Shown: piece by piece, positions 2,518 to 34,077 of the stretch | Position numbering within the stretch: position 1 is the stretch's first letter | Layout: every line of letters starts with the position of its first letter | Origin: an uncultured Bacilli bacterium | Lineage (GTDB): Bacteria; Bacillota_I; Bacilli_A; RF39; UBA660 | Length of the DNA: 50,923 nucleotides | Direction: 5' to 3' | Assembly (NCBI GenBank): GCA_947631035.1 | Contig: CANRJW010000007.1 | Coordinates: forward strand, 1-50,923 | The notes under the pieces: generated by a model | What the model saw: the letters and a program-made list of their open reading frames with translations, nothing else | What the model was told of the DNA's origin: nothing | Database searches by the model: none | Made by a program: the position numbers and the translations under genes

Positions 2518-2700
2518 TTACTTTTTTTCTAATTTTACTTTATAACCACAAGTATTTAGGATTTTTAAGTACATCTCAAGTGTAATTTTATTTATACCTA
2601 CTTCATATCTTGAGTATTGTTGTTGGGTTACTCCTATTTTCTTAGCTAATTCTTTTTGAGATAGGCCACTAGACTTTCTTATATCTTTTAGACTTCTCAT
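2518..2700 (-). CDS. XRE-family transcriptional regulator (60 aa)
   Basis: A single Cro/CI-type helix-turn-helix fills the protein: IRKSSGLSQKELAKKIGVTQ is a textbook HTH_3, followed by QQYSRYEVG and a short helix. It would bind DNA as a dimer. Its ATG overlaps the TGA of the surface-protein gene (ATGA), so the two are translationally coupled and the regulator probably controls that operon. The inverted repeat TTGTC-AAAA-GACAA over the -35 of the surface-gene promoter (4721-4734) is a plausible operator. A second small XRE gene (16316-16507) stands beside another surface gene of the same type. Confidence 0.85.
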   Translation of the reverse strand: MRSLKDIRKSSGLSQKELAKKIGVTQQQYSRYEVGINKITLEMYLKILNTCGYKVKLEKK

Positions 2701-4673
2701 GAGGCACTATTGGTTGGCGCAAGGGCAATACGGAAACTGCGACCGGTATCTTTAGCACCTTCGTTACGACGGAAATCGAAGACACCGGAACCCGTACCAC
2801 TGTAGTGAGCACCACCACGATTGAACCAAGATTCACTAGAAGATACGAACCAAGCTTCGTCATTATGCCAAGAACTAATTTGTCGATTTTGGGTATTATA
2901 TTTTCGACTTTGAAAAGGTCCCATCTCTCCGGTCGCATCTCCTAAAATTCTTTTATTATATTCTAAAGAATTTATATTATTGTATTTGTCATAATATTTT
3001 TCTTCAATTTTTGATAAAGTTAAACCGCTTTTATCACTACTATTTGGTGAAATACTAGTCATAACTCCCATAACATATTCCCATGTTCCTCCACTCATAT
3101 CAAAAATTCCCGTATTATTTTTTGTTGTACTTGCTTCAGTACTTGAAGGATACACATTAGATTTTTCATTGGCAGTTCTCGGAGTTGTAGTAGTGTAATC
3201 TTTATAAGCATCATATCCAGTAGTTGGTGCAATTTTTGCTGAAACTCCAGTTACATAATTTTGACTATTATTGATTCGTATTTCTTCACATGTTGTTTCA
3301 CCATCTGTATTAGTACATCTTCCATAGATACTTTGCGTTAAATAAGCTACTACTCCCCATTCCGTATTCTTTAACATATGGCTTTGTAATTCTGTTTTAT
3401 ATTGTTTTGATGTATTAAATGCATTTCCTACTGTTATATTTCTCCAACTATAGACATTTGGCTTTATTATTACTTTTGTAGGTTCATTTGTATCTTTTTC
3501 TGCTCCAGTTTTTTTCCAACTATTAGTGTCTTTTAAAGAATTATCTTCATTTTGGTTATAGCCCGTTTCAAATTTTCCTACCCATATTCCTTCGCTTTCA
3601 GGAAAAGCTAGAAATGCTGGATGCGTCATCCATTTTCCTACTTCACAAGTTCCGGTTCCTCCTGATTCTGTTGGGGTGGTACATTCTGTTTCACTATCCG
3701 TTGTATTCTCTAAACCAAACCTAATCTCTATTGCTTTTTCTTTTCCTTCTTTTATTGTTGTTAATCCTGTATAGTCGGTTCCCATATCAAAGATTTGATA
3801 TTGATACTTTGGTATCCATACAAAATAACTTTCGATATCTTCTTCATTTATTGTTGCTCCTGTTTCATATGTGTCTTCTTTTCCATTTGCAAGGATTACT
3901 GCATTCGCCCATTTCTTTTTCCCATATTCATACCATTTTGCTGTTGGATCTGCTTTGGTGACATCCCCATTTTCTTCATTTATTTGTACTGCAACCATTC
4001 CTTTGCCTAATACTGGGTCTGCTCCTTGTAATAAGGGTTCACTATATATCGCTATTTCATTTTGTACTGCTTCTATTACCACTTTACTTTTGAATATTTT
4101 ATTTTGACTTTCATTTCCTGCATTCTCATCTATCCATATTCTTACTTCATGACTTTTTTCTTCATAAGGTTTTAATGTACCTGTTCCTATTTTATATGTT
4201 TCTTGGTCTTTGCCATCCATTTGTTGTGTTAATGTTAACTTATTATTACTATCTAGTTTTACTGCTATATCTTGAGATGGTAATTTATTTTCTTCTACAT
4301 TCTCTACTTCTAGTTCTACTTGATAATCCACTCCTACTCCACAAGCATTTCTTATTTTAAATTGATAGGCATCTGTATTGCTTCCTGTTTCTTCTTTCAT
4401 AGGATAGGCATGATACAAATTTAGAGCTTCTGTTACTTCTTCCATCTCTATTTTGATACATTCTGTTCCTATAATATTTTCATTCTTTTCTTTTGTTTCA
4501 TATTTTATATAAGCATAACTAAAAGACACTACCATTATAAGTGTTACTATACTTATTAAACTTACTATTATTTTCTTGAGTCGTCTTGGTTCCTTCTTCT
4601 TATTATTATCTAATATACCCCCCCCCAGACGACGATTTTCACTGGTTGGGAGGTTCTTTTTGAAATTATTCAT
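2697..4673 (-). CDS. Phase-variable (ON) surface protein with C-terminal SUMF1/C-type-lectin-like fold
   Basis: 658 residues from the ATG at 4673, which has GGAGGAGAAAG before it. A cytoplasmic head (1-33) contains LGGG encoded by a run of nine Gs; a membrane segment covers about 35-55; the middle holds a C(x)nC domain and a WYEYGKKKWANAVIL segment found in the paralogue at 14220-16172. The last 330 residues look like the formylglycine-generating/SUMF1 fold: WMTHPAFLAF, WVGKFETGY, NTEWGVVAYL, GIFDMSGGTWEYVMG, and at the end SWFNRGG..GVFDFRRN..SFRIALAP. That end matches the variable region of diversity-generating-retroelement targets and uses many C-ending codons (TTC, TAC, AAC, ACC) unlike the rest of the gene. 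Surface ligand binding is likely; enzymatic sulfatase activation is not supported. Confidence 0.75.
   Translation of the reverse strand: MNNFKKNLPTSENRRLGGGILDNNKKKEPRRLKKIIVSLISIVTLIMVVSFSYAYIKYETKEKNENIIGTECIKIEMEEVTEALNLYHAYPMKEETGSNTDAYQFKIRNACGVGVDYQVELEVENVEENKLPSQDIAVKLDSNNKLTLTQQMDGKDQETYKIGTGTLKPYEEKSHEVRIWIDENAGNESQNKIFKSKVVIEAVQNEIAIYSEPLLQGADPVLGKGMVAVQINEENGDVTKADPTAKWYEYGKKKWANAVILANGKEDTYETGATINEEDIESYFVWIPKYQYQIFDMGTDYTGLTTIKEGKEKAIEIRFGLENTTDSETECTTPTESGGTGTCEVGKWMTHPAFLAFPESEGIWVGKFETGYNQNEDNSLKDTNSWKKTGAEKDTNEPTKVIIKPNVYSWRNITVGNAFNTSKQYKTELQSHMLKNTEWGVVAYLTQSIYGRCTNTDGETTCEEIRINNSQNYVTGVSAKIAPTTGYDAYKDYTTTTPRTANEKSNVYPSSTEASTTKNNTGIFDMSGGTWEYVMGVMTSISPNSSDKSGLTLSKIEEKYYDKYNNINSLEYNKRILGDATGEMGPFQSRKYNTQNRQISSWHNDEAWFVSSSESWFNRGGAHYSGTGSGVFDFRRNEGAKDTGRSFRIALAPTNSAS
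4618..4626 (-). repeat. G9 tract, in-frame contingency repeat
   Basis: Nine consecutive Gs on the coding strand, codons 16-19 of the surface gene. With nine the reading frame is open through all 658 codons; any change not a multiple of three would truncate the protein within a few codons. Long G runs are otherwise absent from this AT-rich window apart from the tract at 23015-23024. Confidence 0.9.
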
Positions 4674-4701
4674 TTCTCTTTCTCCTCCATATCTTAATCT
4701 A

Positions 4702-4730
4702 ATTCTACACTCTTTTTTGTCTTTTGACAA
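4702..4730 (-). promoter_or_regulatory. Promoter of phase-variable surface gene, with inverted repeat on -35
   Basis: TTGTCA (complement of 4725-4730), 17 bases, TAGAAT (complement of 4702-4707). The -35 lies in TTGTC-AAAA-GACAA, a possible XRE operator. Confidence 0.75.
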
Positions 4731-21660: not shown

Positions 21661-23071
21661 TTATTCTCCTATATAAGTGATTCTTGCAAAACCATCTCCA
21701 CTATTTCCTTCCATTCTTTCTTCTGACCCATCATGAGTCGGCATGTCAATTTTATCACCTTTTTGAGTAGTCCAGTTATAGCCTGATCCATCAATTATCA
21801 CTGTTTCTGTAAAAATTTTCCTTGAATAATGCTCTGATGTGTCTAAATGTGTTATTTTACCATCTGTAGAATCTTCTGTTATGGCTTTGCAACCATCATG
21901 TCCTGAGATATAAGAAGAACCTCCGCCAGCGCCCATATCTCCGCAACAGATACCGGAGCCACCTGAACCACCATAGTAACCTCCACCGCCTCCGGCTCCG
22001 CCACCTACAATTGGTGCAGCACTATCACCTGGATTATTGCTATTTGCTCCCCCAATTCCACCGATTCCAAAAGAACCTGCAGTCGAACCGGTTGATGCAC
22101 ACTTCCATCTCCAGGCCACCGAACCACCAGAAGTTTGGCTTCCACCTCTTCCTTGATAATTGGCTAAAGTCCCGCAACCATCATATCCATTTAGACCTCC
22201 GCCAGAGCCACCACAATAACCGTAACCGGTTCCGCCGCCTCCAGCTCCGCCACCAGCAACCATAATACGAGATTTTAAACTTTCAAATTCATTCCATGCT
22301 CCATTTGTCAATCTTACATCTGTGGCTCCGCCTCCAGTTGAGCCACTTTTCCCTAATTTATTTATAGTGGAATTACCACCACCATTATATCCTCCTAAAG
22401 CATTTCCGTCCGATGGACTTCCTTCTCCTCCTACATAAATATATAAAGTTGTCCCACTTGTAAGTTCTATCTCTCCTTTTGTATATCCTCCTAATGTATG
22501 ACCATTCGAATATTTTCCTCCAGCAGCTCCCCATAATTCTATTTGATACTTTCCGTCTGCTGGGGCAATGAATTCTTGCTCATCACCTGTATAATTATAT
22601 TCTATTATATCACCACTATTGATTATAAAATCAACTGTACAAGATGTTGGTACTTTGGTAATATGTTTTACATTCAAATCCCATTCTTCTACATTCCATA
22701 CCCCTTCTGCTTCATTATCACAATTGACATCTATTTTCGAGTAAGTTCCCTTCGGAGGAATTGTACTCGCCTTTTCCCCATTTACTGTAAGGGCAATAAA
22801 GTTAACATCGCCTTTTCCTTTTCGAAAATCCGGTACAGTTCCTTTTAGTACATCAAAAGAAGCTTTTTCTTCATACATAGCAAAACTTCGGTATAAACTT
22901 ATACCTCCAATTATCATTACGATTGCTATGATACTTCCAATTATAATTTGTTTTTGTTTTCTATTTTTATTAAACCGTTTTAAGTCCTCTGGTTTCTTAT
23001 TATCTAAATAATAACCCCCCCCCCAGACGACTATTTCGCTCGGTTGGGAGGTTCTTTTTGAAATTATTCAT
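21661..23071 (-). CDS. Phase-variable glycine-rich (ALK/LTK-type) surface protein, OFF in this sequence
   Basis: From the ATG at 23071 (GGAGGAGAAAG before it) the frame reads MNNFKKNLPTERNSRLGGG and then, because the G-tract has 10 Gs, stops after 23 codons. Removing one G gives an uninterrupted 469-residue protein: cytoplasmic head, membrane segment about 41-58, a domain of about 100 residues with two cysteines, then the glycine-rich domain (EYNYTGDEQEFIAPADGKYQ, IELWGAAGG, many GGG/GGSGG blocks, GAGGGSSYISG, ending GDGFARITYIGE) as in the ALK/LTK glycine-rich family. The body is intact without other lesions, so this is a switched-off gene rather than a pseudogene, unless the extra G is a sequencing error. 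An internal ATG at 22917 would give 418 residues but lacks a leader. Confidence 0.75.
23015..23024 (-). repeat. G10 tract, out-of-frame contingency repeat
   Basis: Ten consecutive Gs on the coding strand at codons 16-19. Ten shifts the frame to a stop four codons later; nine would open it. The orthologous position in the gene at 2697-4673 has nine. Confidence 0.9.
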
Positions 23072-23099
23072 TTCTCTTTCTCCTCCATATCTTAATTTA

Positions 23100-23128
23100 A
23101 TTCTACACTCTTTTTCTAATTTTGACAA
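23100..23128 (-). promoter_or_regulatory. Promoter of glycine-rich surface gene
   Basis: TTGTCA (complement of 23123-23128), 17 bases, TAGAAT (complement of 23100-23105), the same as copy 1. Confidence 0.75.
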
Positions 23129-33848: not shown

Positions 33849-33873
33849 CTCCTCCTTTTCATTTAAGGACGAG
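33849..33873 (-). promoter_or_regulatory. Possible Shine-Dalgarno sequestering hairpin at the end of the T-box leader
   Basis: On the mRNA CTCGTCCTT can pair with AAGGAGGAG in eight of nine positions across a loop of about 7 bases, hiding the ribosome site of the HD gene. There is no T-run here to make a terminator. Confidence 0.5.
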
Positions 33874-34060
33874 ATTTCCCGCGGTACCACCTTATTTTAT
33901 ACAAATTTGTATACCCTTCATTTCTTTCTAACGTTAAGATGTACGGAAATTCTTAAAGTTATTTTCAGAATTTCAGCTCCACTGCTACCTTTCATAACTT
34001 TCTTTGTTTATTTACACCGACCATAAACTCTCTAAAAAATCCAGTTATGTACTCCTCAGT
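33861..34060 (-). promoter_or_regulatory. T-box riboswitch, tRNA-Val specific
   Basis: The conserved AAGGTGGTACCGCG element lies at 33880-33893 and stem I begins GAGGAGTAC near 34056. The specifier GTC (complement of 34019-34021), followed by GGTG, is a Val codon and agrees with valS in the operon. The acceptor-binding TGGT matches the A discriminator of tRNA-Val. Uncharged tRNA-Val should therefore switch on the HD-valS operon. Confidence 0.92.
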
Positions 34061-34077
34061 TTCTTGGCTTTTTTTCT

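Follow-up and report, generated by a model that had tools for sequence, protein, structure and literature searches.

A shared G-tract leader, mostly at an OFF length, precedes unrelated putative surface genes in an uncultured gut Bacilli genome

Forty-seven of the 60 G-runs (at least 8 G) in the 1.43 Mb draft genome of an uncultured Bacilli bacterium, counted in an unbiased census, are carried by one shared leader placed before genes for unrelated, putatively surface-exposed proteins. The G-tract lies inside the reading frame, and all full-leader copies of this genome require G9 or G12 for an open gene body; tracts of G8, G10 or G11 lead to a stop after 20–23 codons, and the bodies downstream are intact though out of frame. 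This is the arrangement of simple-sequence-repeat phase variation. The leader and its surroundings, here called the cassette, probably form a default-OFF, slipped-strand phase variation system of a surface repertoire in which recombination at the leader keeps the switches alike. In such a system, slipped-strand mispairing during replication would lengthen or shorten the G-tract, loss of one base (G10 to G9) would switch one gene ON, and each cell would display a small, changing subset of surface proteins. Homologous recombination or gene conversion via the leader would homogenise the switches and reshuffle promoters, leaders and bodies. Surface location, expression and switching of the cassette genes are presumed here from the DNA sequence.

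Two of the copies, both on the minus strand, are present in the window, which is the whole 50,923-nucleotide stretch analysed here (contig CANRJW010000007.1 of assembly GCA_947631035.1). Coordinates of their parts are presented in Table 1. An earlier sequence-only reading of this DNA had claimed that a 113 bp block at 4618-4730 recurs at 23015-23128. Alignment of the two blocks bears this out: they differ by 7 mismatches and 3 gap columns, one of which reflects the difference between G9 and G10, and the score is 184 as compared to -2 +/- 9 for shuffled sequence. Each copy contains, in order, a TTGTCA / 17 bp / TAGAAT promoter, GGAGG, ATG, the 47-nt leader and the G-run; leaders of the cassette in general measure 41–53 nt. 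The first 19 codons, which had been described as the same, are similar and non-identical (MNNFKKNLPTSENRRLGGG in copy 1 and MNNFKKNLPTERNSRLGGG in copy 2). The flanks of the two copies are near chance, with 52% identity over 60 bp upstream and 55% over 300 bp downstream. The further claim that everything differs after the tract is correct for the bodies, but over all copies the shared block fades gradually. A window copy is placed downstream of tsf, and a T-box leader (RF00230, score above the Rfam gathering threshold) is located at 33862-34074 on the minus strand.

Table 1. Parts of the two window copies and the template repeat of one further cassette gene.
Feature	Position	Strand	Basis or remark
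Copy 1 -35 hexamer TTGTCA	4725..4730	-	sequence; promoter class A, recurring in 19 of 44 copies
Copy 1 -10 hexamer TAGAAT, 17 bp spacer	4702..4707	-	sequence
Copy 1 Shine-Dalgarno GGAGG	4684..4688	-	sequence
Copy 1 leader ORF, 47 nt, ATG to CT	4627..4673	-	common to 44 full-leader copies
Copy 1 leader hairpin: ACCUCCC / inner stem / G-tract + U; 3' arm is the G-tract	4617..4653	-	prediction
Copy 1 G9 tract, in frame (ON)	4618..4626	-	sequence, frame reading
Body 1 (639 aa + stop): membrane anchor and ectodomain	2697..4616	-	
Body 1 C-terminus: weakly FGE/C-type-lectin-like, DGR-type hypervariable tip	within 2697..4616	-	
Copy 2 -35 hexamer TTGTCA	23123..23128	-	sequence
Copy 2 -10 hexamer TAGAAT	23100..23105	-	sequence
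Copy 2 leader ORF, 47 nt	23025..23071	-	sequence
Copy 2 leader hairpin	23014..23051	-	prediction
Copy 2 G10 tract, out of frame (OFF); stop in 0 frame after 23 codons	23015..23024	-	
Body 2 (450 aa + stop): membrane anchor and ALK/LTK glycine-rich domain; intact, reachable only with G9 or G12	21661..23013	-	
DGR-type template repeat of C60:77	G000 C60:1870-1993 (L189)		

A whole-genome BLAST search with a 201 bp query from copy 1 returned 40 matches, and a truncated 48th cassette is probably represented by the G-run C16:19, which lies where a contig begins. Of 22 genomes from the genus, 14 contain the motif CCTCYCA-N8..30-G7, which is absent from the reversed control. The proposal of an ON/OFF leader before unrelated surface genes is thereby extended from two copies to 47 in the genome, and to a cassette that is genus-wide. 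The matching public records are metagenome-assembled genomes labelled 'uncultured Bacilli' or 'uncultured Tenericutes', with isolate names that indicate rabbit ('Lapin') and mouse samples. Occurrence in other phyla was considered and rejected: pattern matches outside the gut Bacilli/Tenericutes records are without the leader start codon, except L281, and look like chance. A phage origin was rejected as well, window positions 2700-4730 being unmatched among phage records and the pattern matches in viral contigs being without a cassette. In one genome of the set (G003), which has 68 G-runs of at least 10, the main leader motif is rare and some of the runs belong to a diverged leader (ATCCTCCCCATCCTAGG).

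The cassettes of this genome comprise 38 G10 (OFF), 3 G9 (ON), 3 G11 (OFF) and 1 G8 (OFF), and two more start off the contig; 3 of the 45 scorable copies are thus ON. These tract lengths and ON/OFF states, like all those given here, are consensus values from metagenome assemblies. Over 11 species, 78 of 100 scored copies are G10 and 10 are ON as compared to one third expected (p about 1e-7); the copies are related to each other and not independent, so this and other p-values overstate the strength of the evidence. The body is open only with a tract of 9 or 12 in 92 of the 100 copies, with close stops in the other frames. In G007 three copies need G8 or G11 and one needs G10, the tract still being G10, and a few other copies need 8/11 or 7/10. 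Most bodies are open over about 240–700 aa, and those of a few copies are short or broken. Most copies are therefore OFF in the assemblies, because most tracts are G10 and reading the bodies requires G9 or G12. The sequence-only reading had overlooked that G10, the consensus length, is an OFF state for nearly all copies. The segment directly after the tract (22996-23014 in the window) occurs here and elsewhere in a few palindrome-like versions (TTATTATTTAGATAATAATA, TCTATTAAATAATAGA), which supply stops in both other frames.

The preference for G10 is seen outside the cassette as well. Among the non-cassette tracts of this genome 10 of 12 are G10 and the rest G11, two of them in promoter spacers, and the genus contains 416 tracts of at least 10 compared with 70 of exactly 9. 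Random slippage alone would make such a strong preference for one OFF length unexpected, and either a set-point or selection must be invoked. These tract lengths are most simply read as a general set-point close to G10, from which the open frame of the cassette would be one base away, making OFF the default. Three G10/G11 tracts (G000 C28:15362, L187; C52:7063, L188; C6:32882, L176) are located between -35-like and -10-like hexamers, and their position suggests promoter-spacing phase variation.

The N-terminal part of the bodies comprises a positively charged stretch and one predicted membrane anchor, with at least three anchor types present, after which unrelated ectodomains follow. These are ALK/LTK glycine-rich, DUF285/BspA-like, or belong to a large group with a weakly FGE/C-type-lectin-like C-terminus. 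The domains assigned in the sequence-only reading fared differently: the glycine-rich domain of copy 2 is well supported (PF12810, E 5.7e-43), but the FGE/SUMF1 resemblance of copy 1 is weak (E 0.005, below the Pfam cut-off). Sequence searches found no relatives of solved structure, and an AlphaFold model of the C-terminus was discarded for its pLDDT of 42; the C-termini may be described as resembling a C-type-lectin fold by sequence. Many bodies end in tips that resemble DGR targets. For the cassette gene C60:77 (G9, ON), a template repeat lies 328 bp downstream of the C-terminal tip, and 20 of the 34 mismatches between variable and template repeat fall at template A (p 3e-5, a test applied to C60:77 only). 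The draft genome, which is 92.7% complete, yielded no reverse transcriptase. Relatives contain reverse transcriptases with DGR-like motifs and clear template/variable pairs; on contigs L214, L216, L218 and L219 (from G017, G020, G005 and G011), which also hold reverse transcriptases, the mismatches occur almost only at template A.

Nucleotide-level selection appears to act on the leader itself, tract included, as a predicted hairpin. Leaders nearly always contain CCTCCC (or a close variant), which pairs with the G-tract, and the Leu codon CTC is present in all scored leaders but one as compared to 2.8% of Leu codons in the bodies. The segment between CCTCCC and the tract forms a predicted inner stem that ends at the tract start, and its sequence varies by species (CCAUUG/CAAUGG, CCAGAA/UUCUGG, CUUCAGG/CCUGGG and others). 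Folding gave a mean z of about -3 over 12 species, relative to composition-preserving shuffles of the middle only, with the weakest hairpin in a copy of G021 (z -0.9). The 47 cassettes of this genome reach z -3.6 as compared to -0.9 for 12 non-cassette tracts, which mostly lack a hairpin, and its leader variants fall roughly in the most stable 10% of 1024 possible ones (p 0.011 against column-frequency draws). Covariation, based on the alignment, is moderate (14 double-change cells versus 9.1; 13 of 500 shuffles). RNAalifold alone gave no compensated pair in the leader alignment and its consensus missed the inner stem, and per-sequence folding was used. This miss and the moderate column covariation are probably due to a shift of the stem register between species. 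The G-tract is not followed by a U-run. The conserved predicted hairpin with the tract as its 3' arm and the apparent DGR-like tips on many bodies are new observations of this study, both of them passed over in the sequence-only reading. Candidate roles for the hairpin are shielding of the Shine-Dalgarno-like G-run, anti-Shine-Dalgarno switching and stimulation of slippage. Ribosomal +1 frameshifting of the RF2 kind, with a Shine-Dalgarno-like G-run before a stop, was rejected, as the stop distance varies, the needed frames differ and no re-pairing slip codon is conserved.

The strongest specific idea for the function of the hairpin is programmed transcriptional slippage, in which it would cause RNA polymerase to skip one G of a G10 template. 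Some full-length protein would then be made from G10 genes, G9 mRNAs giving a low level of it from every 'OFF' copy. A precedent is the IS630-type element of Roseiflexus, where stem-loop-mediated transcriptional slippage loses one C beside the nascent stem-loop (PMC5009743). Both systems place a stem-loop (predicted here) directly 5' of a homopolymer, and in both a one-base loss gives the functional frame. The cassette differs in that many genes rather than one transposase are concerned and the DNA tract varies among copies. The inner stem ending at the tract start, the intact OFF bodies and the fact that G10 with a need for G9 is the norm all agree with slippage by the polymerase. However, tracts without a hairpin, including those in promoters, are also G10, the required change is not a constant one-base loss (G007 and a few other copies differ), and tract length ranges from G8 to G11 among paralogues, which makes this explanation rather unlikely. 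A combined DNA and RNA switch, in which the G10 tract is set to OFF within the hairpin, the polymerase drops a G, all genes leak, rare G9 cells express fully and DGR activity diversifies the tips, seems quite unlikely too.

Phase variation by slipped strands, with homogenisation through the leader, draws further support from comparisons among paralogues. Paralogous leaders are alike within a species regardless of the body that follows, as in a gene family under concerted evolution. In gapped comparisons, leader identity within species is 0.877 for the same and 0.875 for different body families, and between species it is 0.695 and 0.684, respectively. The same body families occur in different species, but the leaders group by species. 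Within species, identity is about 0.86 around the Shine-Dalgarno sequence, peaks at 0.89 in the leader, drops to 0.75 directly after the tract and 0.7 in the membrane anchor, and is close to baseline in the ectodomain; for pairs with unrelated bodies it goes from about 0.51 far upstream, where chance gives about 0.5, through 0.89 at the leader to 0.57 in the ectodomain. In this genome no association is seen among promoter class, N-terminal, mid-leader and post-tract variants and anchor class (all permutation p > 0.14), and four gametes are present at 53 of 91 pairs of two-state sites, a linkage equilibrium that could partly reflect recurrent mutation at a few sites. Recombination between loci, which the sequence-only reading had suggested, is therefore favoured over whole-gene duplication, since the leaders group by species and the blocks are unassociated; this pattern of sequence identity favours recombinational homogenisation.

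A similar leader in every copy might also be maintained without recombination, through species-specific purifying selection on its RNA structure and peptide after ordinary duplication. The nucleotide-level constraint on the leader is in line with such selection, but the likeness reaches into the promoter and membrane-anchor regions, identity is equal for related and unrelated bodies, and the variable positions are found in all combinations; we consider this very unlikely. The sequence-only reading had further taken the cassette to be mobile. Scattered copies do adjoin unrelated housekeeping genes, such as tsf in the window, as a mobile element inserting its promoter and leader before genes would. 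However, the one leader is preceded by promoters of at least three classes, sequence identity declines by degrees in both directions, and matches in viral contigs and outside the gut Bacilli/Tenericutes records are unlike the cassette. A mobile unit is unsupported because the homology is without fixed ends; no element ends were found, no recombinase or transposase was seen by the copies in flanks that are annotated in part, and the idea is highly improbable. An ancient whole-gene duplication without later exchange, which, together with an absence of further copies, the sequence-only reading had named as speaking against its own view, can hardly be credited: one architecture is common to all copies, but the copies are many, leaders are decoupled from bodies, and leaders group by species with body families across species.

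Homogenised phase variation as proposed here resembles several known systems. In Neisseria, each of about 11 opa genes has CTCTT repeats in its leader-encoding region (PMC3745409); these too are many dispersed surface genes with a frame-shifting leader repeat each and independent ON/OFF states. The Opa proteins, however, form one family with a pentamer repeat and 11 copies, compared with several unrelated ectodomain families and 47 copies here. For Campylobacter jejuni NCTC11168, 29 poly-G contingency loci with tracts of 7 or more are reported (PMC4965091). These loci share with the cassette G/C tracts in or near reading frames and a gene set that switches independently, but here one homogenised leader serves most loci and most copies are at the OFF length in the assemblies. 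The pil1 locus of Streptococcus gallolyticus undergoes leader-peptide phase variation with a stem-loop, repeat length controlling a downstream terminator, and most cells are low and few high (PMC3894217). A length change of a leader-frame repeat is tied to an RNA stem-loop in both cases; in the cassette, however, the tract is an arm of the predicted hairpin and has no U-run after it, and the body forms an in-frame fusion. In Candidatus Mycoplasma girerdii, majority alleles of BspA-like surface proteins are OFF, with minor ON variants in reads, according to the portion of the source available (PMC5476646). Repeat-length phase variation of BspA-like proteins is common to both, but its repeats are mostly dinucleotides, and that portion reports no shared homogenised leader cassette. 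A limited literature search found no paper on phase variation in this uncultured gut lineage.

If the proposed system is real, it would place a very large repertoire, with 47 copies in a genome of 1.4 Mb, under a single homogenised phase-variation leader. A favoured tract length one base off the open frame would be a simple means of expressing a big repertoire sparsely, and three diversifying processes, namely tract slippage, leader recombination and DGR-type tips, would act on one gene set. It also raises the question of why a phase-variation tract sits within a conserved hairpin.

Two genes of G000 (C10:1655, L177, and C21:15261, L183) share a second, smaller leader, MIKS-N/T-I followed by G10; both are long ORFs, and the body at C21 contains DUF285/BspA-like repeats. 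An acyltransferase-3 gene at G000 C6:25014 (L176:325-1383) has an intragenic G10 tract close to its start.
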